Shown here: in pieces, positions 1,637 through 13,148 of the stretch
Numbering within the stretch: position 1 is the first letter of the stretch
How the letters are laid out: each line of letters opens with the position of its first letter
Origin: an uncultured Collinsella sp.
Lineage (GTDB): Bacteria; Actinomycetota; Coriobacteriia; Coriobacteriales; Coriobacteriaceae
NCBI GenBank assembly: GCA_900555585.1
Contig: USLT01000008.1
Span: 1 to 15,018, forward strand
Reading direction: 5' to 3'
DNA length: 15,018 nt
Notes under the pieces: model-generated
The model's input: only the letters and a program-made list of their open reading frames with translations
The model's database searches: none
What the model was told of the DNA's origin: nothing
Made by a program: the position numbers and the translations under genes

Positions 1637-1667
1637 GCCTGCGGTGCTTCGGTGCCGCGGGCTTTTT
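1637..1667 (+). terminator. Rho-independent terminator of the small-gene operon
   Basis: An 11-bp stem (1637-1647 with 1652-1662, three G-T wobbles) is closed by a TTCG tetraloop and followed by five T (1663-1667). It lies just after the DUF3310 stop. Its T-run runs directly into the -35 hexamer of the next promoter. Confidence 0.88.
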
Positions 1668-1694
1668 GCGTATCTACCTGCCAAAACCTATAAT
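1666..1694 (+). promoter_or_regulatory. Promoter of the regulator gene
   Basis: TTGCGT (1666-1671) and a perfect TATAAT (1689-1694) are separated by 17 bp, the optimal sigma-70/SigA spacing. Transcription would start near 1701, inside the inverted repeat described separately. The regulator's ribosome binding site follows at 1720-1726. Confidence 0.72.
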
Positions 1695-1719: not shown

Positions 1720-1735
1720 AAGGAGGCTTATCATA
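1720..1735 (+). promoter_or_regulatory. Strong ribosome binding site followed by a non-canonical ATA start codon
   Basis: AAGGAGG occupies 1720-1726. Six bases later is ATA (1733-1735) in the frame of the regulator. No ATG, GTG, TTG or CTG exists in that frame between the upstream stop (TAA 1712-1714) and ATG 1811, which has no ribosome binding site. Confidence 0.6.
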
Positions 1736-2191
1736 GACGCTAAATGCTATTTCGAGTCCGCGCGGGCTGCTCAACGCGCCATAGACCGCCGCTACCGCAT
1801 CATCGAGTCAATGCGCGCCCGCGAGGCTGTCCGCGCCCAGCGCTACGACGTCATAGGTCATGGCGGTGGAGGCTCGCACGACGCCATGCTCGCGACGGAC
1901 GCCCGCATGGATGCCGAGAGCGCAGCGCGAGCCGAGATAGCGCAGCTGACCTCCGAGGTGGAGGACGCACGCGCCGTGTGCGCTGGAGTACGCGCGGCGA
2001 ATCCAACGCAGCGATGGGGGGACGTGCTCGAAGCGCGGTACATCGAGTGCATGGATTGGCGTCACGTCGCGCTGCTCGTTGACATGAGCGAGCGCCAGGT
2101 GCATTCCGACCACGACGCCGCGCTCGAATGGGTGGACCTGGTTGGCATCGCAGCCGCACGCGAGGGCATGGGGCAGGCGTCGTTATTCTGA
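1733..2191 (+). CDS. RinA/ArpU/DUF1492-like late transcription regulator (probable ATA start)
   Basis: Read from ATA 1733 the protein has 152 residues. It begins D-A-K-C-Y-F-E-S after the initiator, resembling the D-A-K-x-Y-L opening typical of DUF1492/RinA-like phage proteins; from ATG 1811 it would lose 26 residues of that helical region. Residues about 1-85 are long charged helices interrupted by H-G-G-G-G-S. From about residue 105 there is a sigma region 4-like helix-turn-helix: L-E-A-R-Y-I-E-C-M-D-W-R-H-V-A, then M-S-E-R-Q-V-H. Related proteins (RinA in staphylococcal phages, ArpU) switch on packaging and structural genes. It has its own promoter and operator-like repeat upstream and an iterated-site promoter downstream, which makes it the likely late-gene controller. 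DNA binding is well supported. Whether it activates initiation or antiterminates is unknown. Confidence 0.75.
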   Translation: MDAKCYFESARAAQRAIDRRYRIIESMRAREAVRAQRYDVIGHGGGGSHDAMLATDARMDAESAARAEIAQLTSEVEDARAVCAGVRAANPTQRWGDVLEARYIECMDWRHVALLVDMSERQVHSDHDAALEWVDLVGIAAAREGMGQASLF

Positions 2192-2250
2192 AACTGCAGA
2201 CAATTGCAGAAACCTGCAGGTAAATGCATGCAAATGCAGCTAACTGCACG
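2192..2250 (+). repeat. Six TGCA-centred direct repeats at exact 10-bp spacing
   Basis: TGCA occurs at 2195, 2205, 2215, 2225, 2235 and 2245, each usually preceded by AA plus one base and mostly followed by G, so the consensus decamer is AA-N-TGCA-G-NN. A seventh TGCA at 2229 makes ATGCATGCA. The array begins immediately after the regulator stop and ends 12 bases before a -10-like hexamer. All six sites lie on the same face of the helix. Most likely it is a binding array for the regulator. Confidence 0.8.
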
Positions 2251-2262
2251 CGAAATAGAGCG

Positions 2263-2268
2263 TATAAC
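2263..2268 (+). promoter_or_regulatory. -10-like hexamer of a putative late promoter downstream of the TGCA array
   Basis: TATAAC matches five of six bases of the -10 consensus. The expected -35 position (about 2240-2245, CTAACT) has no consensus and is inside the repeat array, the arrangement seen at activator-dependent promoters. Transcription would start near 2273-2275. The AT-poor surroundings make the hexamer stand out, but a single hexamer is weak evidence. Confidence 0.45.
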
Positions 2269-2325
2269 TAAGATGTGCAGACGCACGGACAATTTCCAAC
2301 CGCGTCTTGTGCAACCTCCTTGTTA

Positions 2326-2353
2326 GCCGTCCGTTCGCGCGGGCGGCTTTTTT
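2326..2353 (+). terminator. Rho-independent terminator between regulator and HNH genes
   Basis: GCCGTCCG (2326-2333) pairs with CGGGCGGC (2340-2347), with one G-T wobble, and is followed by six T (2348-2353). It could end the regulator transcript, and it also lies only about 60-80 bases downstream of the putative late promoter. Confidence 0.88.
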
Positions 2354-2378
2354 ATTACCAATCTAAGGCGGCGAATCG

Positions 2379-2780
2379 ATGCCATCGAGCAACCCGCGAT
2401 ACGCGAACTACTCCGCACGCTCATCACTTCGAAAGCGTATGGCATCGCAGCCGCAAGCCTGCTGGATGTGCGGTATGCCGATAGATACAGCCCTGCCCGC
2501 ACGCCATCCATACGCGCTCGAACTAGACGAGCTTGTCCCGATCTCGAAGGGCGGAAGCGCGATAGACCCCGCGAACATCCGTGCCGCCCACCGCTGCTGC
2601 AACCAGTGGAGGGGCGACAAGCCCGTCGGCCGCGTGCAGTCCATCGCGACCGCCGCCCGCTCCGCGTTCGGGGCGTGGAGGTCGCCAGCCGAGTTCGTGC
2701 TGTTCGCGCGATCGGCGGCGAAGGGGGCGAAGCAATCGCCGACTAGGCGGGTCGAGCTAAGCAACTCAAGAAACTGGTGA
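2379..2780 (+). CDS. HNH endonuclease (probable packaging-associated type)
   Basis: A 133-residue protein whose ATG 2379 follows AAGGCGG (2365-2371) by seven bases. C-W-M-C (28-31) and C74/N75 in H-R-C-C-N-Q-W-R-G frame an HNH treble-clef fold, with E-L-D-E-L-V-P-I-S-K-G-G (48-59) in the first strand and H71 as the last histidine. The position normally D-H is D-E here (D50-E51). The D-E-x-V-P-x-S-x-G-G form occurs in other phage HNH proteins as I recall, so it need not be dead. Small HNH proteins encoded next to the terminase (HK97 gp74 type) are needed for cos cleavage. Location upstream of TerS and TerL fits this, although a second HNH gene lies between. Terminators flank the gene on both sides. 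Confidence 0.85.
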   Translation: MPSSNPRYANYSARSSLRKRMASQPQACWMCGMPIDTALPARHPYALELDELVPISKGGSAIDPANIRAAHRCCNQWRGDKPVGRVQSIATAARSAFGAWRSPAEFVLFARSAAKGAKQSPTRRVELSNSRNW

Positions 2781-2818
2781 TAAGCGGTCCAGCTAACCGC
2801 ATCACATATCACGGATGA

Positions 2819-2852
2819 GCCGTTCACTCCCTGCACCGGGTGGACGGCTTTT
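2819..2852 (+). terminator. Rho-independent terminator between the two HNH genes
   Basis: An 11-bp stem (2819-2829 with 2838-2848, two wobbles) with an 8-base loop CCTGCACC is followed by TTTTCTC. The loop plus one base (2830-2838) is perfectly complementary to CGGTGCAGG at 2859-2867, allowing a competing or pseudoknotted fold before the next gene. Confidence 0.8.
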
Positions 2853-2883
2853 CTCGTTCGGTGCAGGAAACAAGGTGCAGACA

Positions 2884-3921
2884 ATGACTAAGCGGATAAC
2901 CGAGGAGACCGCGCGTGAGTGGTTTGAACTTACGAGGCGCGGAGAATCGTCCTATCAGATAGCAGATAAATACGGAGTAGACAGGGGAACCGTATCCAAG
3001 CATCTTCGCAAACTCGGATATGCTCCAGGTAAAGGCGGAGGCGCTACAGCTCGCAACAATGCACGCCGTTCCAAAGAGGCTGAGGCAACACGCATCAAGC
3101 GACTAAACGATTTGCTCGCCGACAGGTTCGAGGTACTTGAATCGAACCGACGCTTCCAATGCACGCTCCGATGCAAGACCTGCGGGCATGTGTTCAAGCG
3201 CACGCTCGATATGAGGTACGAGCCGCGCTGCCCCGAGTGCGAGCGCGTGAGAATGGAGCGCAATGCACGCGAGATGGAAGCCGCCCGTGAATTAAATGGC
3301 AGAAACAAACAGCTCGTGAAAGCGTTCAACCTATTCCTTAAGGCGAAGCAACGCGACGATGAAACCAATAAGTGGCTCGATGCCGAGCATGTTTGCAGGG
3401 AATGTGGCAAGGTGTTCACAGCCAGGCAGCTCAGAGAATCAAATCCTTGGTACTCCAGCGATTCACCGACGTTCTGCTGCAATGAATGTTCCAAGAGATA
3501 CCACAGAAGGAACTCAAGGCATCGAAGGCGCGAGCGCTTGGTATGTGGGGATGGTGTATCGCTCGCGCAGCTTATCGATCGTGATGATGGCATCTGCTAT
3601 CTATGCGGTCAGCTCGTCGATAAGAACGATTTCAATATCACAGACGATGGATGGTTTGTTGCAGGCCCGAGCTACCCGTCTGTTGACCACGTTGTTCCAC
3701 TCGCGCGAGGCGGAATCAACAACATGGGCAACGCGAGGCTCGCTCATTGCAGGTGCAACGCGCTGAAGAGCGACAGCCTGCTCGAAGAGCTTGGAGATGC
3801 CCACGCCCCCGCCCCCGGGGGGTGCCCCACCTCAGACCCCGGCGGCATAGCAGTTCCACACCTAGACATCAAAATCCACAATAAGGAGGCGGCGGATGCC
3901 CAAGAACAAACCGCTCTCTGA
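2884..3921 (+). CDS. Large HNH endonuclease with N-terminal helix-turn-helix and zinc fingers, homing-endonuclease-like
   Basis: A 345-residue protein from ATG 2884, eight bases after AAGG; an earlier ATG at 2815 overlaps the terminator stem and is rejected. Parts in order: helix-turn-helix about 22-45 (S-Y-Q-I-A-D-K-Y-G-V-D-R-G-T-V); a C97/C100...C116/C119 zinc finger; a basic helical linker; a C171/C174...C198-C202 finger; then HNH with C238/C241, S-V-D-H-V-V-P-L-A-R-G-G (266-277), H288 and C291-N292. A DNA-reading front end on an HNH nuclease is the plan of phage homing endonucleases. Base composition is lower here (one hand-counted 60-base line, 2941-3000, is 47% G+C; 4681-4740 in terL is 77%), suggesting later acquisition. 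The last 40 or so residues (from G304) are Pro/Gly-rich, come from a GC-rich tract that may be the cos site, and overlap TerS by 26 bases. Confidence 0.82.
   Translation: MTKRITEETAREWFELTRRGESSYQIADKYGVDRGTVSKHLRKLGYAPGKGGGATARNNARRSKEAEATRIKRLNDLLADRFEVLESNRRFQCTLRCKTCGHVFKRTLDMRYEPRCPECERVRMERNAREMEAARELNGRNKQLVKAFNLFLKAKQRDDETNKWLDAEHVCRECGKVFTARQLRESNPWYSSDSPTFCCNECSKRYHRRNSRHRRRERLVCGDGVSLAQLIDRDDGICYLCGQLVDKNDFNITDDGWFVAGPSYPSVDHVVPLARGGINNMGNARLAHCRCNALKSDSLLEELGDAHAPAPGGCPTSDPGGIAVPHLDIKIHNKEAADAQEQTAL
3802..3845 (+). other. Candidate cos (packaging) site: GC-rich tract upstream of TerS
   Basis: The tract contains CCCCCGGGGGG (3812-3822), then TGCCCC and, after a short gap, ACCCCGG. 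Cos phages with HNH-TerS-TerL clusters commonly carry such a C/G-run palindrome just before terS. The position is right, but no overhang can be determined from sequence alone. The reading frame through it gives low-complexity Pro/Gly protein, consistent with a non-coding origin. Confidence 0.4.
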
Positions 3922-4159
3922 TTCCACCACCACCATCGAGCTGGCGTGGAGGGATGGCGACGAGCTATCCGTGACGCGCGAGGTGGTCCGCAAGTACGCC
4001 CGCGTGCTCGACATGACGGACAGCGGACGCGACATCAAGCCGCTTGCCTCTGGGATGTTCGAGGCAATCGACCGCCTGAAGGCGCTCGAGGACGCGGAGG
4101 CCGCGAAGTCCGGCGCGACGCCGCTTGAGAAGATTCTGAATGGCGTGGCCGATGGCTAG
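3896..4159 (+). CDS. terS: Probable terminase small subunit
   Basis: An 87-residue protein. ATG 3896 follows a perfect AAGGAGG (3883-3889) at six bases. It is short and mostly helical, with V-R-K-Y-A-R-V-L-D and L-A-S-G-M-F-E-A-I-D-R-L-K-A-L-E, the kind of YA..LD and closing L..L helix found in small actinophage TerS proteins. The gene directly precedes and overlaps terL by 20 bases. TerS recognises the packaging site (cos/pac) and loads TerL. No clear N-terminal helix-turn-helix is seen, so the assignment depends partly on position. Confidence 0.7.
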   Translation: MPKNKPLSDSTTTIELAWRDGDELSVTREVVRKYARVLDMTDSGRDIKPLASGMFEAIDRLKALEDAEAAKSGATPLEKILNGVADG

Positions 4160-5621
4160 GCGCGGTTGCCAGACGCCGACATACTCGTGGTGCGACAGCT
4201 ACGACCGCACCGAGGGCAGACAGGCGGTGGAGCTCTCGCGCGTCTACGGCATGCCGCCGCACCCGTGGCAGGCGTCCATCCTGAACGACTGGCTCGCGCT
4301 GGACGATGACGGGCGGCTACTCAACTCGCTGTGCGTCCTCGAGGTCCCGCGCCAGAACGGCAAGACGGGCGTGTGCGACCCGCGCGAGACGTGGGGCCTG
4401 GTGAAGCGCGGCGAGTGGATTCTGCACACCGCGCAGGAATACCAGACGGCGAAGAAGGCGTTCGACCGATTGCGTGCAAAGTTCGGTGATTGCAAGAACG
4501 ACCCACGCGCGAGATTCCCAGAGCTGAATCGACTGATTGATAAATACACGACAAGTGCCAACCAGATGGTTCTCGACCTTACCAACGGTGCGCACATCGA
4601 GTTCCGAACTCGCGGCAGCTCCACGCAGATGGGGCGCGGCGGAACGTTCGACCTTGTGGTCGTGGACGAGGCCCAGGACTACACCGACGAGCAGGACGCC
4701 GCGCTGTCGCCGCTCAACTCGGCCGCGCCGCACGGCTCGCCTCAGACCATCCTCATGGGCACGGTGCCCGACCCAAAGCGCGTCAACGCGGGCGAGGTCT
4801 TCACCCGCCTGCGCAAGATGGTGCGCGAATCCCCCGAGCGCGGCTTCTGCATGCACGAGTGGGGAGTCCCAGAGCTGCCGGACGACGTGGGCGACCGCGA
4901 TCTGTGGTTCGCCACGAACCCCTCGCTCGGATACCAATTGCTCGAGAGCGCCCTGCTCAAAGATTCCAAGTCGATGACGGCCGAGAAGTTCGCGATGGAG
5001 CACTTGGGGTGGTATCCGAAGACGATAGGCAAAGTGGAGAAGCCGATTAACGCTTCGGCATGGGCAAAGGCTGCAACATCAGCTCCCCCGCAGGATGGCG
5101 TGAAGGTCTTCGCCGTTAAGTTCTCGCCAGACGGAGCGACTGGATGTCTATCGGTTGGCGTCCGACCAGACGTCGGCCCCGGGTACGTGGAGGTCATACG
5201 GTACTTTACGCTGAGCGACGGTATCACATGGCTTGTTAACTGGCTATCAGAGCGCAAAGACGATGTTGCGCAGATCGTCATCGACGGACAGGGCAACGCC
5301 CAGAACCTCCACGATCGGCTCATCGACGAGGGTGGCGTGCCGCCGTGTGAGATTCAGAGACCGAAGACGGCGGATGCGGTATCAGCATTTTCGCGTATTG
5401 CGAATGATGTTAAAGAAGGCGCTCTTGAGCACTTTAATCAAGAGCTTCTCAACGACGCCGCCACTCAGTGCACGAAAAGAAAGATTGGAAGTGGAGGCGG
5501 ATGGGGATTCGAATCAACCGACACCGCCGACGCCTGCCTGATTGAGTCGGCAGCGCTAGCCTATTGGGGTGCGATGACTACCAATAAAGACCAGAGAGGG
5601 GAGCTGCTGCTGGGATGGTAG
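4140..5621 (+). CDS. terL: Terminase large subunit (packaging ATPase and nuclease)
   Basis: A 493-residue protein of normal TerL length. The ATPase domain has a Walker A variant V-P-R-Q-N-G-K-T (69-76), Walker B V-V-V-D-E (173-177) and a following coupling motif I-L-M-G-T. The C-terminal nuclease domain starts near 320 with F-A-V-K-F-S-P-D-G, continues with I-V-I-D-G-Q-G (379-385) and ends with D-T-A-D-A-C-L-I-E-S-A (461-471), giving acidic residues for metal binding. The first strand has K where many families have D, so D331 may supply the acid. Start: ATG 4140 or ATG 4152, neither with a strong ribosome binding site, so translation probably couples to TerS. The nuclease half is less GC-rich (5401-5460 is 47% G+C by hand count), hinting at mosaic exchange. 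Confidence 0.93.
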   Translation: MAWPMARRGCQTPTYSWCDSYDRTEGRQAVELSRVYGMPPHPWQASILNDWLALDDDGRLLNSLCVLEVPRQNGKTGVCDPRETWGLVKRGEWILHTAQEYQTAKKAFDRLRAKFGDCKNDPRARFPELNRLIDKYTTSANQMVLDLTNGAHIEFRTRGSSTQMGRGGTFDLVVVDEAQDYTDEQDAALSPLNSAAPHGSPQTILMGTVPDPKRVNAGEVFTRLRKMVRESPERGFCMHEWGVPELPDDVGDRDLWFATNPSLGYQLLESALLKDSKSMTAEKFAMEHLGWYPKTIGKVEKPINASAWAKAATSAPPQDGVKVFAVKFSPDGATGCLSVGVRPDVGPGYVEVIRYFTLSDGITWLVNWLSERKDDVAQIVIDGQGNAQNLHDRLIDEGGVPPCEIQRPKTADAVSAFSRIANDVKEGALEHFNQELLNDAATQCTKRKIGSGGGWGFESTDTADACLIESAALAYWGAMTTNKDQRGELLLGW

Positions 5622-7039
5622 AGCTTTCAAACATAACGAGCGCGGCGGGGCTTGACGCCGAATCCAAGCTCGCCCTAGAGCAGTTGGTGGAGGTCTACAC
5701 CAAGCACCAGCCGACGAACCACCTGCTCGAACAGTACTACGAGTGCAAGCAGCCGACGCCCCCAATCGGCATCACCAACATCCCCGACACCGTGCAGGTT
5801 CCGACGCGCTGCGACTGGGCGGCGAAGGCGGTTACCAGCGTTTCGGAGCGCGTCCGAATGAACGGCTTCACGTTCTCGGGCGATTACCGCGACGCGACCC
5901 TCGACCGCATCGAGCGTATGAACGGGCTTAGCACCAACTTCAACCGCCACGTTGCTTCCGAGTTGGTCCACGGCTGTATGTTCGCCACCGTGCAGCGAGT
6001 CGGCGATTCCGTCGCGGTCCGCACGCACACAGCCGAGACGGCGGCGGCTATATGGGACGTGGCAGCGCAGCGCATCGCGGCTGGCTTCGTCATCGCGGAT
6101 TCGCGGCGCACGAAGTGGAGTCCCAACGCGCCAGTTCCGGTGCAAGTGAACCTCCACCTTTCGCGCCGCGTGGTCGTCATCACGCAATACGACGCGGGCA
6201 AGTGGAGCGCGGCGAGCAACCCCACCCCGCTCGACCGCCCGATGATGGAGGCGTTCTGCTTTCGTCCTACAGGCTCCAAGCCATTCGGTCAGACGCGAAT
6301 CACGCCCGCCGTGCGCTACTACGTGGACGAGGTGCAGCGCACCTTGCGTTACATGGCTGTCAGCGGGGCGCTGTACGCGACGCCGAAGGACATTCTGACT
6401 GGTCTTACGGAAGCGCAGTTCAAGCAGATGCAGGGCCAGCAGTTCAGTGTCATGATGACCTCGCTATTCATGGCGACGCGCGACCCGAAGAGTGGGCAAG
6501 TCCCCGACTACAAGCGCCTGCAGGCGTCCAGCCCGCAGCCCTACATCGATTCGATCGCGACGTATGCAAAGCTCTTCAGCGGGGCTACTGGCGTCCCGCT
6601 CAACTCGCTCGGCATCGTGCAGGACAACCCCGCGAGCGCCGAGGCAATCGCCGCGCAGCGCGAGGACATCTGCGTTGCCGCCGAGGACTGCATCGAGACG
6701 AACCGCGAGAGCATGCGGAACGTCGCGCTCATGGCCATGGCGGTCGCTGAGAACAAGACGCTGGACCAGCTCACCGACGAGCAACTAACCGTCATGCCGG
6801 ACTTCAAGAACCCCATGCGGCCATCCCTCGCCTCCACCGCCGACGCCTACGTGAAGATCGCTGGCGTCCTCGAAGGTTTCGCCCAGACGCGCGAGTTCCT
6901 GCGCGGACAGGGCTTCACGCCGTCCGAGGTGGAGAGCGTCGCATCGCAGCTCAAGGCGGGCGAGAACCAACGCGCCCTGCTCGCCATCATGGGCGGGGCA
7001 AAGCCCACCTCCACCACCTCAGAACCGGTGGAGGGGTAA
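5615..7039 (+). CDS. Portal protein (SPP1 gp6-like type)
   Basis: A 474-residue protein overlapping terL by seven bases, with GGGGAG upstream. Family features: N-terminal helices with H-L-L-E-Q-Y-Y-E-C (36-44), the early P-T-R-C-D-W-A-A-K-A-V (about 63-73), a beta-rich wing, A-V-R-Y-Y-V-D-E-V-Q-R-T-L-R-Y-M near 230-245, S-S-P-Q-P-Y-I-D-S-I near 308, and the helix P-A-S-A-E-A-I-A-A-Q-R-E-D that leads into the crown. Portals form the dodecameric DNA channel at one capsid vertex and dock the terminase. Length and its place between terL and the MuF-like gene fit. The C-terminal 60 residues are variable. Confidence 0.9.
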   Translation: MVELSNITSAAGLDAESKLALEQLVEVYTKHQPTNHLLEQYYECKQPTPPIGITNIPDTVQVPTRCDWAAKAVTSVSERVRMNGFTFSGDYRDATLDRIERMNGLSTNFNRHVASELVHGCMFATVQRVGDSVAVRTHTAETAAAIWDVAAQRIAAGFVIADSRRTKWSPNAPVPVQVNLHLSRRVVVITQYDAGKWSAASNPTPLDRPMMEAFCFRPTGSKPFGQTRITPAVRYYVDEVQRTLRYMAVSGALYATPKDILTGLTEAQFKQMQGQQFSVMMTSLFMATRDPKSGQVPDYKRLQASSPQPYIDSIATYAKLFSGATGVPLNSLGIVQDNPASAEAIAAQREDICVAAEDCIETNRESMRNVALMAMAVAENKTLDQLTDEQLTVMPDFKNPMRPSLASTADAYVKIAGVLEGFAQTREFLRGQGFTPSEVESVASQLKAGENQRALLAIMGGAKPTSTTSEPVEG

Positions 7040-7042
7040 GCC

Positions 7043-8017
7043 GTGGCGCAGATTCCGCGCGCCGCGCTCGACTTCTTAACGAAGGAAATCAACGGCATTT
7101 CCGCCGACGCGAAGGCGAAGGTAGCCCGCGTGCTCAAGGAGCTTGATTGGAACGACGTGTCAGCGTGCCGAGACGCCGTGGTTGACGTGGTGAATGCCGT
7201 GCTTGACAACTACGGCTTGGCGGCTGGGCAGGCGGCGGCTGACTTCTTCGACGTGTCGCGCGAGATTGCAGTCGGAGAGAAGCTTGGGGCCATCGCAACG
7301 GCTGACAGGGACCCAGCTGCTACGGAGGGCGCGATTCGCGCATTCGTCGACAAGGTGAACGGCGGCGATTACGACGCATTCGAGCGCTTGGTGCTGTCGC
7401 GCATCGACTACGAGATAAAGCGAGCGGCGGGAACCACCATGACCGCCAACGCCGCACGCGACCCGCTGCGACCGAAGTACGCGCGAGTCCCGAGCGGGTC
7501 CGAGACGTGCCGTTTCTGCCTGATGCTCGCGAGCCGTGGTTTCGTGTACAGCTCGAAGCGCAACGCTGGCGCCGTGGACCACTACCACAACGACTGCGAC
7601 TGCCGCGTTGTATGCAGCTGGGGCGGCGGCGTGGAGGGCTACGACCCCGACGAGATAGCAGAGCGCTGGCATGACCTCGAATGGGCCGACGCCGAGGCGA
7701 GAGCCGAGAAGAGCGGAGCAGACCCAGACGAGGAGTATGCAAAGCGCATGCGACACCTGAGCGAGTCGGCTAGTCGTTCGCATGGGAAGAACCGTGTCAG
7801 CAAGTATGAGGCGTTTGCATATGACTCGCAGCGAAAGCGGCACATCGATTTTCACAGCTTCGATGATGTGCGCAATTATCTAGATGGCGCCAACAGCCAT
7901 GACGAGCTTATTAGACGATTCAACATCGTTGGCAGAACGTATGGCTACAAATCTGAGCAGATGCAAAGTAAGCGCATGAAAGACGCGATAAAGCATTTCG
8001 AGAAGAAATTCAGATAA
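7043..8017 (+). CDS. MuF-like minor head protein with a distinct C-terminal domain
   Basis: A 324-residue protein starting at GTG 7043, six bases after GGAGGGG. The N-terminal 140 residues are helical. The MuF/VG15-like core has C156-R-F-C159, then H182-N-D-C185-D-C187-R-V-V, the conserved Cys/His cluster of portal-associated minor head proteins. After about residue 200 comes an acidic linker, and after about 245 a separate segment rich in Lys, His and Phe (S-K-Y-E-A-F-A-Y, D-F-H-S-F-D-D-V, R-R-F-N-I-V-G-R-T-Y-G-Y). The DNA for that part drops in G+C (7861-7920 is 47%, against 75% at 7441-7500, hand-counted). MuF proteins in other phages carry exchangeable C-terminal toxin or effector domains; this tail may be one, but no catalytic motif is recognised. 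Confidence 0.82.
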   Translation: MAQIPRAALDFLTKEINGISADAKAKVARVLKELDWNDVSACRDAVVDVVNAVLDNYGLAAGQAAADFFDVSREIAVGEKLGAIATADRDPAATEGAIRAFVDKVNGGDYDAFERLVLSRIDYEIKRAAGTTMTANAARDPLRPKYARVPSGSETCRFCLMLASRGFVYSSKRNAGAVDHYHNDCDCRVVCSWGGGVEGYDPDEIAERWHDLEWADAEARAEKSGADPDEEYAKRMRHLSESASRSHGKNRVSKYEAFAYDSQRKRHIDFHSFDDVRNYLDGANSHDELIRRFNIVGRTYGYKSEQMQSKRMKDAIKHFEKKFR

Positions 8018-8100
8018 GCAAAGCCCCGTGGGAGGGCGTTAGCGCTCATCGGAAAGCGCAGCGCGGTAGACACGCAACGCCGCGTCAATTTTGGGGAATC
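8018..8100 (+). other. Non-coding spacer with several small hairpins, unknown role
   Basis: No reading frame stands out. GCGCT with AGCGC (about 8041-8059) and CGCGG with CCGCG (about 8063-8086) form two 5-bp hairpins, and CCCC near 8023-8027 can pair with GGGG near 8093-8096 to enclose them, a three-way-junction shape. There is no T-arm or CCA end, so it is not a tRNA. A terminator follows immediately. Confidence 0.35.
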
Positions 8101-8124
8101 GCCCGCCGCACGGTGGGCTTTTTT
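8101..8124 (+). terminator. Rho-independent terminator upstream of the methyltransferase cassette
   Basis: GCCCGCC (8101-8107) pairs with GGTGGGC (8112-8118), with one wobble, around a GCAC loop, followed by six T (8119-8124). Confidence 0.88.
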
Positions 8125-8129
8125 CATAT
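8117..8129 (+). repeat. Left copy of 13-bp direct repeat bounding the methyltransferase cassette
   Basis: GCTTTTTTCATAT occurs here and again at 8971-8983. Both copies start in the 3' edge of a terminator stem and end in CATAT. Confidence 0.7.
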
Positions 8130-8142
8130 GAAAAGGAGGGGC

Positions 8143-8949
8143 ATGGGAGCCACATCCCAAAGCAAGCTCAAGTTCGAGGATTACGACGGCTTCGTGGAGA
8201 AGTTCAAGCCGAAGAAGACAACGGACGATTGCTACACGCCGCCCGAGATTTACGACGTGGTGGCGGATTACGTCACGGAGCGCTTCGGCATCGACCGCGC
8301 CGACATGGTGCGACCGTTCTACCCTGGCGGTGACTTCGAGAGCTTCGATTACCCAGATGGGTGCTGCGTCGTGGACAACCCGCCGTTCTCCATCCTGCAG
8401 CGCATCAAGCGTTTCTACCGCGACAACGGCATCAAGTTCTTCATCTTCGCCCCGTCGCTCACGGCGTTCAGCGGTGCGCTCACGACCGAGTTCACGCACA
8501 TCATCTGCGACGCGAACATCACGTATGCCAATGGCGCGGTCGTCCGCACGGCGTTCGTCACGAACATGGGCGGCGACATCGTCGCGGAATCGTGCCCCGA
8601 GCTGGGCGACCGCATCAACACGAAGATGGACGAGATTAAGAGCCGCACGACGAAGAAGCTACCGAAATACGAGTACCCCGACGAGGTACTGACCGCTGCG
8701 AAACTCCAATGGTTCGCGGCGCATCACACGCCGTTCCAAGTGCGGCGCTCCGATTGCATCCGCATAAGCAAGCTCGAAGCACAGGGCGGCAAGGTCATTT
8801 TCGGCGGCGGGCTGCTTTTGAGCGAGCGAGCCGTAGCAGAGCGAGCCGTAGCAGAGCGAGCCGTAGCAGAGCGAGCCGCAGCCCATAAATGGGAGCTGTC
8901 GGAGCGCGAGCGTGCGATGGTTCACGCGCTGTCCAAACCCGTTGACTAA
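8143..8949 (+). CDS. Adenine-specific DNA methyltransferase-like protein (terminator-flanked cassette)
   Basis: A 268-residue protein. ATG 8143 is chosen because AAGGAGG (8133-8139) lies just before it; ATG 8113 is inside the terminator and ATG 8128 precedes the ribosome binding site. D-D-C-Y-T-P-P-E-I-Y-D-V-V (28-40), R-P-F-Y-P-G-G-D-F (57-65) as a degenerate SAM-binding motif I, and V-V-D-N-P-P-F-S (76-83), the catalytic motif IV of N6-adenine methyltransferases, lie in the expected order. The remainder, N-G-I-K-F-F-I-F-A-P and S-F/A-F-V-T-N-type strands, continues the Rossmann fold. Such proteins may modify phage DNA against host restriction. It sits oddly inside the head module, between two sets of terminators, so it looks like a moron. 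A pentapeptide repeat (E-R-A-V-A) lies near its C-terminus. Activity is unproven because motif I is weak. Confidence 0.72.
   Translation: MGATSQSKLKFEDYDGFVEKFKPKKTTDDCYTPPEIYDVVADYVTERFGIDRADMVRPFYPGGDFESFDYPDGCCVVDNPPFSILQRIKRFYRDNGIKFFIFAPSLTAFSGALTTEFTHIICDANITYANGAVVRTAFVTNMGGDIVAESCPELGDRINTKMDEIKSRTTKKLPKYEYPDEVLTAAKLQWFAAHHTPFQVRRSDCIRISKLEAQGGKVIFGGGLLLSERAVAERAVAERAVAERAAAHKWELSERERAMVHALSKPVD
8824..8883 (+). repeat. 15-bp coding tandem repeat (E-R-A-V-A pentapeptide)
   Basis: The unit GAGCGAGCCGTAGCA occurs three times exactly (8824-8838, 8839-8853, 8854-8868), followed by a diverged fourth (8869-8883). It keeps the reading frame and predicts an extended charged helix at residues about 228-247 of the methyltransferase-like protein. 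Confidence 0.9.
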
Positions 8950-8950
8950 G

Positions 8951-8978
8951 GCGGTCCCCGCACGGGAGCCGCTTTTTT
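8951..8978 (+). terminator. Rho-independent terminator directly after the methyltransferase-like gene
   Basis: Bases 8951-8959 pair with 8964-8972 (one wobble, one C-A mismatch) around a GCAC loop, followed by six T (8973-8978). It begins one base after the stop codon. Confidence 0.82.
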
Positions 8979-8983
8979 CATAT
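8971..8983 (+). repeat. Right copy of 13-bp direct repeat bounding the methyltransferase cassette
   Basis: GCTTTTTTCATAT is identical to 8117-8129, 854 bases upstream. The span between the copies contains only the methyltransferase-like gene and its stop-proximal hairpin. Confidence 0.7.
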
Positions 8984-8986
8984 CCA

Positions 8987-9008
8987 GCCGTCCAGCAGGG
9001 CGGCTTTT
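8987..9008 (+). terminator. Second, tandem terminator before the scaffold gene
   Basis: GCCGTCC (8987-8993) pairs with GGGCGGC (8998-9004), with one wobble, loop AGCA, then four T and CTC. The right arm and tail (CGGC TTTT CTC) are the same as in the terminator at 2819-2852. Confidence 0.72.
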
Positions 9009-9013
9009 CTCAT

Positions 9014-9048
9014 GCCCGCACGGGCTACACCGACGCGCCGCACGGCGC
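9014..9048 (+). other. Two further GCAC-loop hairpins in the scaffold gene leader
   Basis: GCCCG-CA-CGGGC (9014-9025) and GCGCCG-CA-CGGCGC (9035-9048) are perfect inverted repeats without T-runs. The ribosome binding site of the scaffold gene follows four bases later. With the two terminators before them they form an almost continuous train of hairpins. Confidence 0.6.
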
Positions 9049-9062
9049 AGGAAGGGGACAAT

Positions 9063-9593
9063 ATGCCTAACGCCGAGCCGACCGCCACCCCAGTGCAGGT
9101 GGAGGGGCAGCAGACCGAGCCGACCAACGCCGACGCGCTCGCTGAACTGCAAGCCAAGTACGACGCCTTGCTCGAATCCTCCCGCAAGTGGGAGGGTCGC
9201 GCGAAGAGCAATGCGGACAAGGCGAAGCAGTACGACGCGCTCGCCCAGCAGACCGCCGACGCGCAGGCCGCAGCCGACGAGGCCAAGGCCGACGCCGCGA
9301 AGCTCCAGGGCGAACTCGACGCCGCGAATCGCAGGCTCGCCGTCTCGCGCATCGCAGCCGAGAAGGGCGTGGACGCCGACATTCTCGCCGCCATGAGCGC
9401 CGAGGACGAGGACGGCATCACGGCAAATGCCGACAAGCTCGCCGCGAGCTACGCGGCGCGAAATCTCTACCCGTCCGTCACGGACGGCGGAGCGAATGCA
9501 GCCCCCGCGATCACTGCCGATTCCATCGAGCAGATTGAAGACCCGCTCGCCCGCGTCATGGCACGCGCCGAGCACATCAACCTCTACCAGTAA
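9063..9593 (+). CDS. Capsid scaffold protein
   Basis: A 176-residue protein. ATG 9063 follows AAGGGG (9052-9057) by five bases; an earlier ATG at 9012 lies in a leader hairpin. A disordered start rich in Pro, Thr and Gln is followed by a long coiled-coil from about 22 to 100 (L-A-E-L-Q-A-K-Y-D-A-L-L, A-A-D-E-A-K-A-D-A-A-K-L-Q-G-E-L), then a small helical part and a C-terminal tail. Composition (Ala, Asp, Glu, Lys), length and position immediately before the major capsid gene are those of phage scaffolds, which nucleate capsid assembly and are removed from mature heads. No protease domain is present, so it would be removed by exit or by another protease. Confidence 0.85.
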   Translation: MPNAEPTATPVQVEGQQTEPTNADALAELQAKYDALLESSRKWEGRAKSNADKAKQYDALAQQTADAQAAADEAKADAAKLQGELDAANRRLAVSRIAAEKGVDADILAAMSAEDEDGITANADKLAASYAARNLYPSVTDGGANAAPAITADSIEQIEDPLARVMARAEHINLYQ

Positions 9594-9602
9594 GGAGCCA
9601 TC

Positions 9603-10532
9603 ATGGCAGTACCCGCAAACATCACCAAGGCCGCGGCCGTCAACGCATCCCTCGACCAGGAGTTCATCAAGAACTTCAAGGGCGATTCCGACCGACTCGC
9701 CGAAATCCTCGGCATCTTCGGCGTGGAGCGCATCGCCGCCGGCACCGCGCTCAAGATGCTGAAGGTCACCGGCACCCTGAACAACGCCAAGACCGACGCC
9801 ACCACCACGCTCCCCGGTACCGGCACGTTCTCCACCGGCTCTTCCTCCGGCACCGCCTACGTCGAGGGCGACGAGGTTGCGCTCTCCACCTTCGGCACCG
9901 AGTGGGAGACCGTCGGCGAGGTCACGGCCAAGCCGTACCGCAAGATGACCACCGCCGCCGCCATCCAGAAGGCTGGCTACGCCAACGCCGTCATGAAGAC
10001 CGACCAGAAGATGCTCTCGCTCATTCGCGCCGAGATCATCAAGGAGTTCTTCACCTTCTTGGAGAAGGGCACCGGCACCGCCACGGGCAAGGGCCTGCAG
10101 CTCGCCGCCGCCAACGTCGATGCGAAGCTCGGCGACACCATGGAGAAGAACGGTGACGGTTCTGGCCGTATCATCCACTTCATCAGCCGCGAGGACGCCG
10201 CCGCCTACCTCGGCGCCGCGCCCATCACCACTCAGAACGTCTTCGGCCTGACCTACCTGCAGAACTTCCTCGGCATGACCGACGTTTTCCTGACCTCCCA
10301 GGTGCAGAAGGGCAAGATGTACGCCACCCCCGCCGAGAACATTCACGTCTTCGGCATCGACTTCGCAGAGCTGGCCCAGGGCGGTCTTGCCTACACCCAG
10401 TCCGCGAACGGCCTTATCGGCGTTTCCCATGCCCCCGCATACGACCACGTGTCCACCGAGACCAACGTTCTCACTGGCATGCTGCTCTTCCCCGAGGTCA
10501 AGGATTACATCATCAAGGGCACCATTTCCTAG
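9603..10532 (+). CDS. Major capsid protein (HK97 fold type)
   Basis: A 309-residue protein; AAGGAG (9592-9597) overlaps the scaffold stop and lies five bases before ATG 9603. It resembles the HK97-fold capsid proteins of many Gram-positive siphophages: N-terminal N-I-T-K-A, F-I-K-N-F-K-G-D-S-D-R-L-A-E-I-L-G-I-F-G-V, the E-loop segment E-G-D-E-V-A-L-S, then K-P-Y-R-K-M-T-T-A-A-A-I-Q-K-A-G-Y, the helix L-S-L-I-R-A-E-I-I-K-E-F-F-T-F-L, and a C-terminal I-T-T-Q-N-V-F-G-L-T-Y-L-Q-N-F-L-G block. There is no separate delta domain. Codons are strongly biased to C-ending forms, even more than in neighbouring genes, as expected for the most highly expressed protein of a phage. Confidence 0.92.
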   Translation: MAVPANITKAAAVNASLDQEFIKNFKGDSDRLAEILGIFGVERIAAGTALKMLKVTGTLNNAKTDATTTLPGTGTFSTGSSSGTAYVEGDEVALSTFGTEWETVGEVTAKPYRKMTTAAAIQKAGYANAVMKTDQKMLSLIRAEIIKEFFTFLEKGTGTATGKGLQLAAANVDAKLGDTMEKNGDGSGRIIHFISREDAAAYLGAAPITTQNVFGLTYLQNFLGMTDVFLTSQVQKGKMYATPAENIHVFGIDFAELAQGGLAYTQSANGLIGVSHAPAYDHVSTETNVLTGMLLFPEVKDYIIKGTIS

Positions 10533-10540
10533 GAGGAATA

Positions 10541-10900
10541 ATGGCGGCATACGCATTCTTCGATGATTACGCCGCGCGATACGCCGCCGACCCCGCCGAC
10601 AAGAAGCGAATCGAGGTGCTGCTCGGTGACGCATCGGACCTAATCGAGTCCATGCAGCCGAGCGGCACCGCGTCGGCGTCGCTGCTGACCTCCACCGCGT
10701 GCGCCATGGTCTACCGCGCCATGGCGTCAGCGGGGATGGGCGGAATCTCGCAGTACAGCGAGGGCGCTGCTGGCATGACCGCGAGCGTGACCTACGCCAA
10801 CCCGCACGGCGACCTCTACCTCACGCAGGTGGAGAAGGACGCGCTGGGCATCGGCGGCGGCATGGTCGGATTCTGCGACCTCACGGGCGGTGCGCGATGA
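10541..10900 (+). CDS. Head-tail connector (adaptor) protein
   Basis: A 119-residue protein with AGGAGG overlapping the capsid stop (10531-10536) and ATG at 10541. It is helical: F-F-D-D-Y-A-A-R-Y, then R-I-E-V-L-L-G-D-A-S-D-L-I-E-S and A-C-A-M-V-Y-R-A-M-A-S. The Y-S-E-G-A-A-G-M-T-A-S-V-T-Y-A-N-P segment is the pattern of gp15/gp6-like adaptors that ring the portal after DNA packaging. Location right after the capsid gene supports this. Confidence 0.82.
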   Translation: MAAYAFFDDYAARYAADPADKKRIEVLLGDASDLIESMQPSGTASASLLTSTACAMVYRAMASAGMGGISQYSEGAAGMTASVTYANPHGDLYLTQVEKDALGIGGGMVGFCDLTGGAR

Positions 10901-11235
10901 TGCGCGGGCTGCTGAAGGGTCAGAGCGTGGAGGTCGTGCGCGTCACCGCATCCTACGTGGACGGCGAGCGCGTCGAATCTACCGAGCGCGAGACCGTGCA
11001 GAACGTTCTCGTGTGTCCGGGTGCGACCGTCGACAGCGCGACCAACGCGCGCCCCGACGCAGACCGCGTGGCATACACGCTGGCCTTCCCGAAGGGCTAC
11101 GACAAGCCGCTCCGCAATTGCCGCGTGGTAATCGGCGGGCGCGAGTTCGCCGTGATGGGTGACCCGCAGCCATGCCGCGAGAACTGCCCCACGGCATGGT
11201 GGATGAGGGTGGAGGTCGAGCGCGTCGATGGCTAA
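10897..11235 (+). CDS. Probable head closure/stopper protein
   Basis: A 112-residue protein starting at the doubled ATGATG (10897) that overlaps the previous stop. It is beta-rich: G-Q-S-V-E-V-V-R-V-T-A, Q-N-V-L-V-C-P-G-A-T and A-Y-T-L-A-F-P-K-G-Y-D, ending in W-W-M-R-V-E-V-E-R-V. Being second after the capsid gene and a small beta barrel with Y-T-L-x-F-P-K and G-R-x-F-x-V features fits the head-closure (SPP1 gp16-like) group. The assignment is by position and fold guess as much as by sequence. Confidence 0.7.
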   Translation: MMRGLLKGQSVEVVRVTASYVDGERVESTERETVQNVLVCPGATVDSATNARPDADRVAYTLAFPKGYDKPLRNCRVVIGGREFAVMGDPQPCRENCPTAWWMRVEVERVDG

Positions 11236-11503
11236 GACGAAGGTTCGCATCAACAGCGCGGGCGCCCGCTCGATCCTCATGAGCGGAGCGGTGTCAGACG
11301 AACTCGACCGACGCGGGCAGTCCATCGCGCGGGCCGCGTGCGCCATGGCGAGCGAGGACACGCTGCGCAACCCGCCGTTCTCCGCGAACACCAAGAACGG
11401 CATGAACCGCGCCCGCTGCATTGTCGGAACGGCGTCGCCGCATGGCGTCAATAACAACAACAAGCACAACACGTTGATCAAGGCATTGGGGGCTGGTCGC
11501 TGA
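11228..11503 (+). CDS. Neck/tail-joining protein (HK97 gp10-like position)
   Basis: A 91-residue protein whose ATG 11228 lies inside the previous gene, eleven bases after GGAGGT. It starts K-V-R-I-N-S-A-G-A-R-S-I-L, continues with a helix E-L-D-R-R-G-Q-S-I-A-R-A-A, and ends in a basic, Asn-rich tail (G-V-N-N-N-N-K-H-N-T-L-I-K-A-L-G). This is the usual plan of short gp10-like neck proteins, where an N-terminal strand and long helix precede a flexible end. Its stop overlaps the next start by one base. Confidence 0.72.
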   Translation: MAKTKVRINSAGARSILMSGAVSDELDRRGQSIARAACAMASEDTLRNPPFSANTKNGMNRARCIVGTASPHGVNNNNKHNTLIKALGAGR

Positions 11504-11844
11504 TGGACGTAGAGAGGGAGTTCCGCCGCGTGCTGGGCGAGTTGCCCGCCGAGGTCTACATCGACGTTCCAGAAACGCGACCCGCCGAGTTCTACAGCGT
11601 GGAGCTGACGGGCACGACCACGGCTCACTCTGGCGCGCTCGCAACCTCCACCATCGCCGTGCAGTGCTGGGCGGCGACCCGCAGGCGTGCGCGCGAGTTG
11701 TTCGACGCGCTGGCCGCAAAGCTGCCGTCAATCTGCTACGCGTGCGGGGCCATCGGCTCCGCGACGTTGGAGGGAGGCTACCGATTCGATGACCTCGAAA
11801 GCGGCACCCCGCGCTACCAAGCGCTCATACAAATCACCTACTGA
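11503..11844 (+). CDS. Tail completion/terminator protein
   Basis: A 113-residue protein with TGATG overlap at 11501-11505. Sequence pattern: an N-terminal helix (V-E-R-E-F-R-R-V-L-G), P-A-E-V-Y-I-D-V-P-E-T-R-P, a strand T-I-A-V-Q-C-W-A, a helix T-R-R-R-A-R-E-L-F-D-A-L-A-A-K-L-P, and closing strands G-T-P-R-Y-Q-A-L-I-Q-I-T-Y. This is the gpU/gp17-like fold of proteins that cap the tail tube at the head end. It is the last gene before a terminator. Confidence 0.8.
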   Translation: MDVEREFRRVLGELPAEVYIDVPETRPAEFYSVELTGTTTAHSGALATSTIAVQCWAATRRRARELFDALAAKLPSICYACGAIGSATLEGGYRFDDLESGTPRYQALIQITY

Positions 11845-11849
11845 CGACG

Positions 11850-11874
11850 GCCCGCGCGAGCGGGCTTCTTTTTT
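11850..11874 (+). terminator. Rho-independent terminator between neck and tail genes
   Basis: GCCCGC (11850-11855) pairs perfectly with GCGGGC (11860-11865), loop GCGA, followed by TTCTTTTTT. The next ribosome binding site GGAGGT starts directly after it at 11875. Confidence 0.85.
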
Positions 11875-11884
11875 GGAGGTACAC

Positions 11885-12466
11885 ATGGCTAAATCCGAAG
11901 CCAAGAAGAACGACGTGAACAACGTCTCCGACGGCACGGGCCTTGCGGGCGGCTACCTCTTCCGCGCCCCGCTCGGCTCCACCAAGCCAACCGACCTTGA
12001 CGGATCACTCGACCCCGCGTTCAAGGTTCTGGGCTTCCTGTCCGAAGACGGTCTGACGTTCTCGACTGAGAGCGACCGCGAGGAAATCAAGGATATGAAC
12101 GGCGAGACCATCCATTCCGCCAAGTCCTCTCATTCCGAAACCTTCACCGCGACGCTTGCCGAGGTCAAGAAGGGCACGCTTGCCGTGCAGTACGGCGAGA
12201 AGAACGTGGAGGACACGGCTGGCAAGCTCACCGTCCACGTCAAGGGCGATGACCCCGAGCGCGCCATCTACGTCGCCGAGTGCGTGCTTAAGAACGGTCG
12301 CCGCTGGCGCCGACTCATCCACGACGCGCAGCCGACCGAGCTGGGAGACCTCGCGGTGAAGGCGGGCGAGCTTTTCGGCCGCGAGACCACTTTCACCGCG
12401 TACAAGGACTCGACCAGCGGCGATTACTACACCGACTGGTTCGAGTCCACCGAGACGGGTGAGTAG
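11885..12466 (+). CDS. Major tail tube protein
   Basis: A 193-residue protein; GGAGGT (11875-11880) is four bases before ATG 11885. Upstream in-frame codons belong to the previous gene's shadow and the terminator. Features are G-L-A-G-G-Y-L-F-R-A-P-L-G-S-T-K-P near the start, L-G-F-L-S-E-D-G-L-T-F-S near 50, then E-E-I-K-D-M-N-G and a series of strands (S-E-T-F-T-A-T-L-A, K-L-T-V-H-V). This is typical of siphovirus tail tube subunits, which stack as hexamer rings. Its place directly before the chaperone pair is conserved. Confidence 0.88.
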   Translation: MAKSEAKKNDVNNVSDGTGLAGGYLFRAPLGSTKPTDLDGSLDPAFKVLGFLSEDGLTFSTESDREEIKDMNGETIHSAKSSHSETFTATLAEVKKGTLAVQYGEKNVEDTAGKLTVHVKGDDPERAIYVAECVLKNGRRWRRLIHDAQPTELGDLAVKAGELFGRETTFTAYKDSTSGDYYTDWFESTETGE

Positions 12467-12468
12467 CC

Positions 12469-12756
12469 ATGGCGAAGCCCGATAAGCCGACCATCGTGGA
12501 CGGCATCAAGGTCGAGGTCACCGCCGACGCCTTCGACGATTTCGAAATCACCGAGTGCATTGCGGACCTCTACGACGAGGACGCCGACGATGGCGCCAAG
12601 ACCGCCGCTGCGGTGAAGATGTACCGCCTTGTCTTCGGCGCCGACTTCGCCCGCATCAAGCGCGAGCTTCGAGCAAAGCACGACGGCAGGCTGACCAACG
12701 AGGCCATGAGCGCATTCATGGCGGAGGTTATCGAGGCTGTCAACGCAAAAAACTAA
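12469..12756 (+). CDS. Tail assembly chaperone, short form (gpG-like)
   Basis: A 95-residue protein. It has an N-terminal strand G-I-K-V-E-V-T-A-D-A-F-D-D-F-E-I-T-E and a helical remainder (V-K-M-Y-R-L-V-F-G, R-I-K-R-E-L-R-A-K-H) ending A-V-N-A-K-N. As with lambda G, the last codons form a -1 frameshift heptamer. Chaperones of this type coat the tape measure protein until the tube assembles. Start ATG 12469 is two bases after the tail protein stop. Confidence 0.88.
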   Translation: MAKPDKPTIVDGIKVEVTADAFDDFEITECIADLYDEDADDGAKTAAAVKMYRLVFGADFARIKRELRAKHDGRLTNEAMSAFMAEVIEAVNAKN

Positions 12757-13148
12757 TCGGGCTTGCCCTTGCGCTTAAGCGGTACGGCGGTGAGCTGAGA
12801 GCCGATTTCCAGCAGTACTACGGCCTGGACCTGGACCGCATGGGAACCGACTACAGCCGCCGCCACGCCGCCGTGCTCATGGAGCAGCTGCCAGCCGACA
12901 GCAGGACGGCGCTCGCCCTGAATCCCGAGGCCGAGTGGGGCGCGACCGACTACCTGCTCTGGCGCATCGAACACACGCTGCGCGTCATCGCGTGGCAGTC
13001 CACGGAGGACGGCGCGAAGGGGCGCAGGCCCCCGAAGCCGCTCCCGACGCCCGCCGACCGCGCGAGGGTGGGGCGCAAGCTGCAAGCGACCGATTTGGAC
13101 TTCATCAATCAAAAACTAGGATTCACGGAGGTGGCCGATGGCAACTGA
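12469..13148 (+). CDS. Tail assembly chaperone, frameshifted long form (gpGT-like), -1 shift at about 12753
   Basis: If ribosomes slip back one base on the heptamer at 12747-12753, translation continues from CTA 12753 to TGA 13146-13148. This adds 131 residues (L-I-G-L-A-L-A-L-K-R-Y-G-G...) for about 226 in total. The extension has an F-Q-Q-Y-Y-G-L-D region and an A-T-D-Y-L-L-W-R-I-E-H-T-L helix, as in lambda T-like partners that bind the tape measure. No good start codon with a ribosome binding site exists for the second frame alone, which supports synthesis by frameshifting. It ends 11 bases inside the tape measure gene. Confidence 0.85.
12747..12753 (+). promoter_or_regulatory. Programmed -1 ribosomal frameshift site
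   Basis: A-AAA-AAC is in the correct phase (GCA AAA AAC TAA), one of the most efficient -1 slippery heptamers. The zero-frame stop follows at once. The palindrome CGCTTAAGCG (12772-12781) lies about 18 bases downstream and could stimulate slippage. Confidence 0.88.

Follow-up and report, generated by a model that had tools for sequence, protein, structure and literature searches.

How does RNA polymerase reach the late genes of a phage when a strong terminator stands between the late promoter and the first of these genes? The question is raised by the window, that is, the whole stretch of 15,018 nucleotides from an uncultured Collinsella sp. analysed here, which is part of a phage of gut bacteria, one whose nearest relatives with a named host come from Coriobacteriia (Collinsella, Olsenella). 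Zinc-ribbon genes, a DUF3310 gene and a terminator are followed by the regulator gene, an array of repeats, the adjacent hexamers TATAAC and TAAGAT, a leader terminator, two HNH endonuclease genes with another terminator between them, and the genes for terminase, portal and head protein (Table 1). This is a RinA/ArpU-like layout, with the regulator gene before the packaging genes and the repeats and promoter 3' of it, in which the two HNH genes come first and terminase after them. Among the upstream genes, two adjacent ones at 293-631 and 621-992 both match PHROG 21525 and have zinc-ribbon-like cysteine pairs. Just 5' of the regulator gene, at 1689-1709, TATAAT is followed by the inverted repeat TAACA-TG-TGTTA, a possible repressor operator.

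Table 1. Features of the window around the late promoter and along the late genes.
Feature	Position	Strand	Basis or remark
Terminator 3' of the DUF3310 gene and 5' of the regulator gene	1637..1662	+	
TATAAT, probable -10 of the promoter for the regulator gene	1689..1694	+	read from the sequence; predicted
Gene of the putative late regulator (152 aa, starting with ATA)	1733..2191	+	PHROG 36 and PHROG 79 matches, structure model
Array of six TGCA cores in exact 10-bp steps; predicted regulator sites	2195..2248	+	
TATAAC, first -10-like hexamer of the late promoter	2263..2268	+	
TAAGAT, second -10-like hexamer (TANNNT); candidate sigma-dependent pause element or true -10	2269..2274	+	
Small inverted repeat GTGC-AGAC-GCAC, close to where the RNA is expected to begin	2275..2286	+	weak
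Leader terminator between late promoter and late genes, stem-loop 2325-2348 and T-run	2325..2353	+	
HNH endonuclease, first late gene	2379..2780	+	
Second late-strand terminator	2817..2850	+	
Terminase large subunit	4140..5621	+	
Internal late-strand terminator	8101..8118	+	
Internal late-strand terminator, member 1 of tandem pair	8948..8975 (about)	+	
Internal late-strand terminator, member 2 of tandem pair	8986..9005	+	
Internal late-strand terminator	11849..11866	+	

For comparison, 64 de-duplicated loci with such a regulator were used, mostly from Coriobacteriia; the regulator search across 396 Coriobacteriia genomes gave matches in 45, and neither a single-protein scan of viral contigs nor tblastn of INPHARED phages found relatives of the regulator. 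Duplicates were excluded (L009, L010, L015, L017, L028, L048, L018-L021 and L023), and L057 was dropped for a stop in frame and wrong orientation. The first hexamer of the late promoter was assigned by eye in 27 of the 64 loci, the other 37 being without an assigned promoter; L003, L011 and L012 carry no curated hexamer. The near-identical L004, L013 and L022 are excluded from all counts over 24 loci, and L053 too from the 23-locus count of TGn.

The regulator gene named in an earlier, sequence-only reading of this DNA holds up: its ATA start lies behind AGGAGG, and relatives of about 152 residues align from there on. An in-frame stop at 1712-1714 precedes this codon (1733-1735), and the next usual start is the ATG at 1811. 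At the equivalent position the relatives have ATT (L001), ATC (L014), TTG (L005) or ATG (L002); near-cognate start codons may tune the level of the regulator. The structure model (mean pLDDT 89.6) consists of an N-terminal helical hairpin and a C-terminal helix-turn-helix (HTH) resembling sigma region 4, and profile and fold comparisons recovered the same sigma-region-4-like HTH, as that reading had proposed.

The family assignment is less direct. The same reading had called the protein RinA/ArpU-like, and what stands of this is the match to PHROG 36 (1e-06), a profile also matched by 16 of 20 diverse family members at 1e-3 but broad enough to have matches in 12 of 14 control genomes. The window protein has no match to TIGR01636 or TIGR01637 at E 0.01, nor do any of the 20 family members match these models, and hhalign of the wider family against RinA is insignificant (P 0.034). 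By these comparisons the protein appears to resemble RinA/ArpU distantly. PHROG 79, which is called Q-like, is among the two best PHROG matches of the protein (3.7e-06, residues 76-137), and hhalign against the QuuD family gave P values of 0.019, 0.00057 and 0.0013, in the HTH region only. The window protein has no match to PF06530, the Q21 family; the PDB fold search gave nothing at E 0.001, and no Q21 chain was among the 50 matches listed for each search. Membership in the Q family is not established by these profiles, similarity to Q21 being confined to the HTH.

The 10-bp-phased array described earlier is exact, with TGCA at 2195, 2205, 2215, 2225, 2235 and 2245. Three phased TGCA, with up to 2 mismatches allowed, occur four times in the window, every time within the array, and one of 200 shuffles reached four or more. 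Arrays with a period of 10, for which a minimum of four copies of one 4-mer had to stand in arithmetic progression between 100 bp upstream and 1500 bp downstream of the end of the gene, were found in 23 of the 64 loci, seven of which have near-identical regulators (L002, L003, L004, L011, L012, L013 and L022), and in 2 of 49 control windows. Exact 4-mers were used because an earlier period scan with wide cores had been swamped by codon periodicity in coding DNA. All other periods from 5 to 30 were seen in at most two loci each, some single counts being runs of N in L024, except for the harmonics 20 (11 loci) and 30 (8 loci); similarly, an elastic score of at least 20 was reached by 24 of the 64 loci at period 10, and by at most two at each of nine other periods. 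The relatives have 4 to 14 sites per array, and the core differs between phages: TGCA, TTGC, AGAC, TGAC, TGCC, TGAG, TTGG, TGGC, TGTC, TCGG and ACCC. The array is also in phase with the promoter. From 11 to 71 bp upstream of the first hexamer in 24 loci, 89 of 122 TG dinucleotides lie at a distance of 7-9 modulo 10, and at least three TGs lie in this phase at 17 of 24 promoters (fewer at the remaining 7); in the window, the T of the last TGCA is 18 bp from the first base of TATAAC. Short ORFs resembling HicA toxins by eye are found between regulator and array in L013, L014, L015 and L044.

The best evidence in this analysis that the regulator reads the array comes from a natural swap between L012 and L013. 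The two regulators share every residue up to 121 but diverge from residue 122 to the C-terminus; aligned to the model of the window protein, residue 122 is predicted to fall in the third helix of the HTH. The core YTGCAC is present in 39 of 49 repeats of five L012-like loci and in none of 20 repeats of L013 and L022, and over 70 bases of promoter and leader L012 and L013 differ at one position. This comparison of sequences suggests that the array core covaries with the recognition helix, together with a tail behind the helix that differs as well.

At the late promoter, TATAAC was located as described before. The earlier statement that no second -10-like element can be seen does not stand: TAAGAT follows TATAAC directly. 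The same arrangement, with a second hexamer TANNNT starting 6-8 bases past the first, is present at 17 of 24 promoters, compared with a mean of 0.4 and a maximum of 4 in any of 2000 shuffles. In our reading the first hexamer is the -10, which would put the start site of the window at about 2275, and the second is a candidate pause element. The roles may also be exchanged, with a start at about 2281, because T at position six is kept in the second hexamer and not in the first. TGn before the hexamer is a feature of extended -10 promoters, and it precedes the first hexamer in 13 of 23 relatives, the window being without it. Behind the second hexamer, inverted-repeat stems of at least 4 occur in 10 of 24 loci, a number reached by 22 of 1000 shuffles (mean 5.6), and stems of at least 5 are at chance level; a 5' hairpin as a strong conserved element was weakened by these shuffles. 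A simple sigma-70 scan found one weak site in the window (7851-7879; shuffle mean 2.8), in agreement with the earlier remark that no other clear promoter is visible downstream, although this is a weak test since the late promoter itself escapes it.

The strong terminator noticed after the promoter is a stem-loop of -17.4 kcal/mol followed by a T-run, and all five further terminators of the sequence-only reading were found again (Table 1). A leader terminator lies at most 130 nt downstream of 20 of the 27 assigned promoters, where the background elsewhere on the strand is 0.07 per 130 nt; none was called for L006, L016, L024 (masked bases), L040, L046, L060 and L069. Leaders that are otherwise very different have in the same place a hairpin, with energies from -14 to -29 kcal/mol, and a T-run, and 11 of the 27 promoters are bracketed by terminators on both sides. 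The proposal of a Q-like late switch is partly supported, by the placement of terminators, the sigma-4-like HTH and the match to the Q-like PHROG 79; as to protein family it is reduced to a match in the HTH.

Inside the late operon the picture depends on how terminators are called. The strict scan of 1733-15018 gave no terminators on the opposite strand, and over the window and ten relatives it gave 40 on the late strand versus 9 on the opposite one, a count that includes some terminators upstream of the promoter and comes from 20-kb stretches which may overrun the late genes. Six of the 10 relatives have a terminator whose distance to the regulator is 5.2 to 7.4 kb. When the whole window was scanned by a laxer criterion, 11 terminators were called on the + strand and 20 on the - strand, for the most part hairpins that are long and imperfect. 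In the comparison as a whole, the laxer scan gave, outside leaders, 134 in 153,150 nt of the - strand versus 82 in 149,640 nt of the + strand; the strand bias of internal terminators therefore depends on the strict criterion. In addition, the strict scan finds no late-strand terminator in the lambda stretch, missing tR' (attributed to its long stem), so that strict counts are lower bounds. Tandem terminator pairs about 30 bp apart were seen in the window (8948-9005), in L246 (5823/5856) and in L249 (7349/7380, both in late-strand coordinates). The ORF at 8113-8949 contains a 15-bp tandem repeat of 3.9 copies with 97% matches (8824-8882).

What this comparison of loci shows is the array and its phase with the promoter, the correspondence between core and recognition helix, the two hexamers and where the terminators stand. 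Judged from the sequences, the succession of array, -10, -10-like element, terminator and late genes is how a Q-type switch would be expected to look, and it is kept where the sequence itself varies. Two anatomical features of that type are present in the window, the leader terminator and the -10-like element TAAGAT. We propose that the 152-residue protein is an array-bound activator that would also render RNA polymerase terminator-resistant, being Q-like in action without necessarily being a Q protein, and we give this reading a probability of about 0.58. The predicted late-gene regulator would place its sigma-region-4-like C-terminal domain on the TGCA cores, with one protomer to each turn along a single face of the helix. 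The protomer nearest the promoter would stand about 30 bp before the start site and about 13 bp from TATAAC, closer than a normal -35 contact allows, and may recruit RNA polymerase or replace sigma region 4. Polymerase would start at TATAAC and be held by TAAGAT, where the regulator could be picked up, and the regulator-charged polymerase would then pass the leader terminator and later ones. Binding of the protein to DNA, the pause, the transfer to polymerase and passage through terminators are what we infer from the anatomy.

The main rival, which we consider unlikely while taking it seriously, is a plain activator that recruits polymerase as described for Ltr/Alt, with a fail-safe terminator in the leader that limits basal expression of the prophage and lets some polymerase leak past at strong initiation, and with extra promoters for the distal genes. 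It agrees with Staphylococcus phage phi13, where, according to the excerpts of PMC13123087 used here, promoter activity depends on Ltr, the repeats upstream of the TATA box are required and further start sites are reported downstream. It also agrees with NCBIfam, which names RinA and ArpU as transcriptional regulators, both matching PHROG 36 like the window protein. Leader hairpins of the stability given above together with internal terminators, as called by the strict scan, would however be a costly design for a plain activator, and no downstream promoter-like site rose above chance in the simple, weak scan.

Two other explanations concern the leader itself. Its RNA, with the 5' stem, might act as a cis put-like antiterminator or attenuator, the regulator doing nothing beyond starting transcription; the stems of at least 4 behind the second hexamer speak for such RNA-based control, as does stem-capable sequence at the opening of the Alt, RinA, phi13 and A118 leaders (by eye), but the repeat is weakly above chance and varies widely in sequence and size, and we hold this account to be improbable. 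We think it still less probable that the leader terminator ends the early or regulator transcript, with the late promoter merely in front of it and late transcription leaking past. The window and 8 other loci with a leader terminator gave no terminator call in the stretch from regulator to promoter, which fits this account; the 11 bracketed promoters, each already insulated by a separate upstream terminator, do not, and in these loci the leader terminator is not merely the end of the early transcript, which weakened its candidacy as part of an early operon. The array-bound activator acting on termination remains our preferred reading.

Array promoters also occur in other viral contigs, where 45 stretches (L260-L304) have at least five TGCA at 10-bp steps, most of them without late-promoter anatomy. 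The strict double-hexamer pattern is present in 3 of 66 distinct array-strands, a count that alone is uninformative (shuffle mean 0.9, maximum 5). In these three, 18, 28 and 19 bp separate the last core from the first hexamer, and each is followed by a terminator; 10 of the other 63 array-strands have a terminator too. With L285 and L300 added by eye, the array promoters of L261, L263, L285, L294 and L300 have one terminator each, followed by genes for terminase (L263) or portal (L294) or, by eye, HNH- and terminase-like genes; no regulator was recognised upstream in L261. In L263 a tRNA-Leu gene (5877-5961) lies between regulator and array. The double-hexamer reading is possible by eye in L261, L263, L285 and L294, as well as in TP901-1 and phi11, is less clear in L300, where the hexamers are unclear, and finds no clear counterpart in phi13 and A118 (by eye).

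In Gram-positive phages late-gene control is described as activation, and antitermination of the Q type as a lambdoid matter. Among distinct RinA stretches, 19 of 23 have a + strand terminator downstream of the promoter and none of the 23 has one on the - strand; among distinct Alt stretches the corresponding counts are 65 of 70 and 14 of 70. The - strand matches indicate that the scan has a background in Alt stretches, where most terminator matches are moreover one hairpin type, others differing, and some + strand matches lie within genes. Behind some Alt promoters there are tRNA-Lys genes (L077 2135-2209, L175 1060-1134, L203 3081-3154). In A118 a terminator was seen by eye about 240 nt behind its hexamer, and a looser scan gave 11 versus 3 terminators on the late and the other strand in phi11, 10 versus 5 in TP901-1 and 12 versus 2 in phi13. 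In phi13 a terminator also stands behind P23, a promoter defined experimentally (PMC13123087, in excerpt). We suggest, tentatively and with less confidence than for the window itself, that RinA, ArpU, Alt, Ltr and the window family could all be promoter-loaded antiterminators, with repeated sites, an often doubled -10 and a terminator that would admit only regulator-charged polymerase. In such a switch the phased array would serve as a rack from which several regulators are loaded. A terminator behind the late promoter for these five regulator types makes antitermination directly testable there. The arrays, in which the core shifts with the recognition helix and the spacing stays at about one turn, offer a natural series for DNA recognition by sigma-4-like domains.

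That repeats accompany late promoters and their activators is already known, as far as the excerpted text of PMC13123087 goes, in which the term antitermination has no occurrence; a literature search with partial coverage of key papers found no description of RinA/ArpU or homologous activators as antiterminators. With the RinA/ArpU systems the window shares a small protein encoded immediately 5' of the late promoter, and phi11 and A118 have, by eye, TGGCA repeats at a spacing of 11 bp, as well as a -10-like hexamer and a terminator in the leader. The window repeats differ in being exactly 10 bp apart, more numerous and variable in core between phages. Profile matches in those phages are PHROG 36 (1.9e-38) and TIGR01636 for phi11 RinA, PHROG 248 (5.8e-38) and TIGR01637 (8.4e-37) for A118 gp66. 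The succession of regulator gene, direct repeats, -10, leader terminator and late genes is shared with Ltr of phi13 and Alt of Lactococcus phage TP901-1, whose families are PHROG 1058 and DUF722, respectively. In the excerpts of PMC13123087, Alt binds four imperfect repeats from -76 to -32, and phi13 has three 18-bp repeats and one partial repeat, unlike the window array.

The Q proteins offer the other comparison. In lambda, the Q gene adjoins its late promoter and a terminator lies downstream. The window resembles lambda Q and the Q21 type (PF06530) in having the regulator gene beside the late promoter and a terminator behind the promoter, with weak matches of its protein to the Q-like PHROG 79 and the QuuD profile, whereas it differs in its host group, Coriobacteriia, and in having arrays of 4 to 14 phased sites in its family instead of one binding element. 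The hexamer offset is 6-8 bp here and 12 in lambda, read from the lambda sequence between the hexamers that we take to be the relevant ones, so that a lambda-like pause is not assured. In its HTH, lambda Q is described in the consulted part of PMC7171158 as resembling Q21 and sigma region 4. Finally, GafY/GafZ of the Caulobacter gene transfer agent perform both activation and antitermination for a phage-like structural cluster; they differ from the window regulator in being two proteins that act with IHF, a phased array is not mentioned in the excerpts of PMC11150451, and GafZ is described there as unlike known antiterminators. As far as these excerpts go, GafY/GafZ indicate that a system other than the lambdoid phages can join activation with antitermination.
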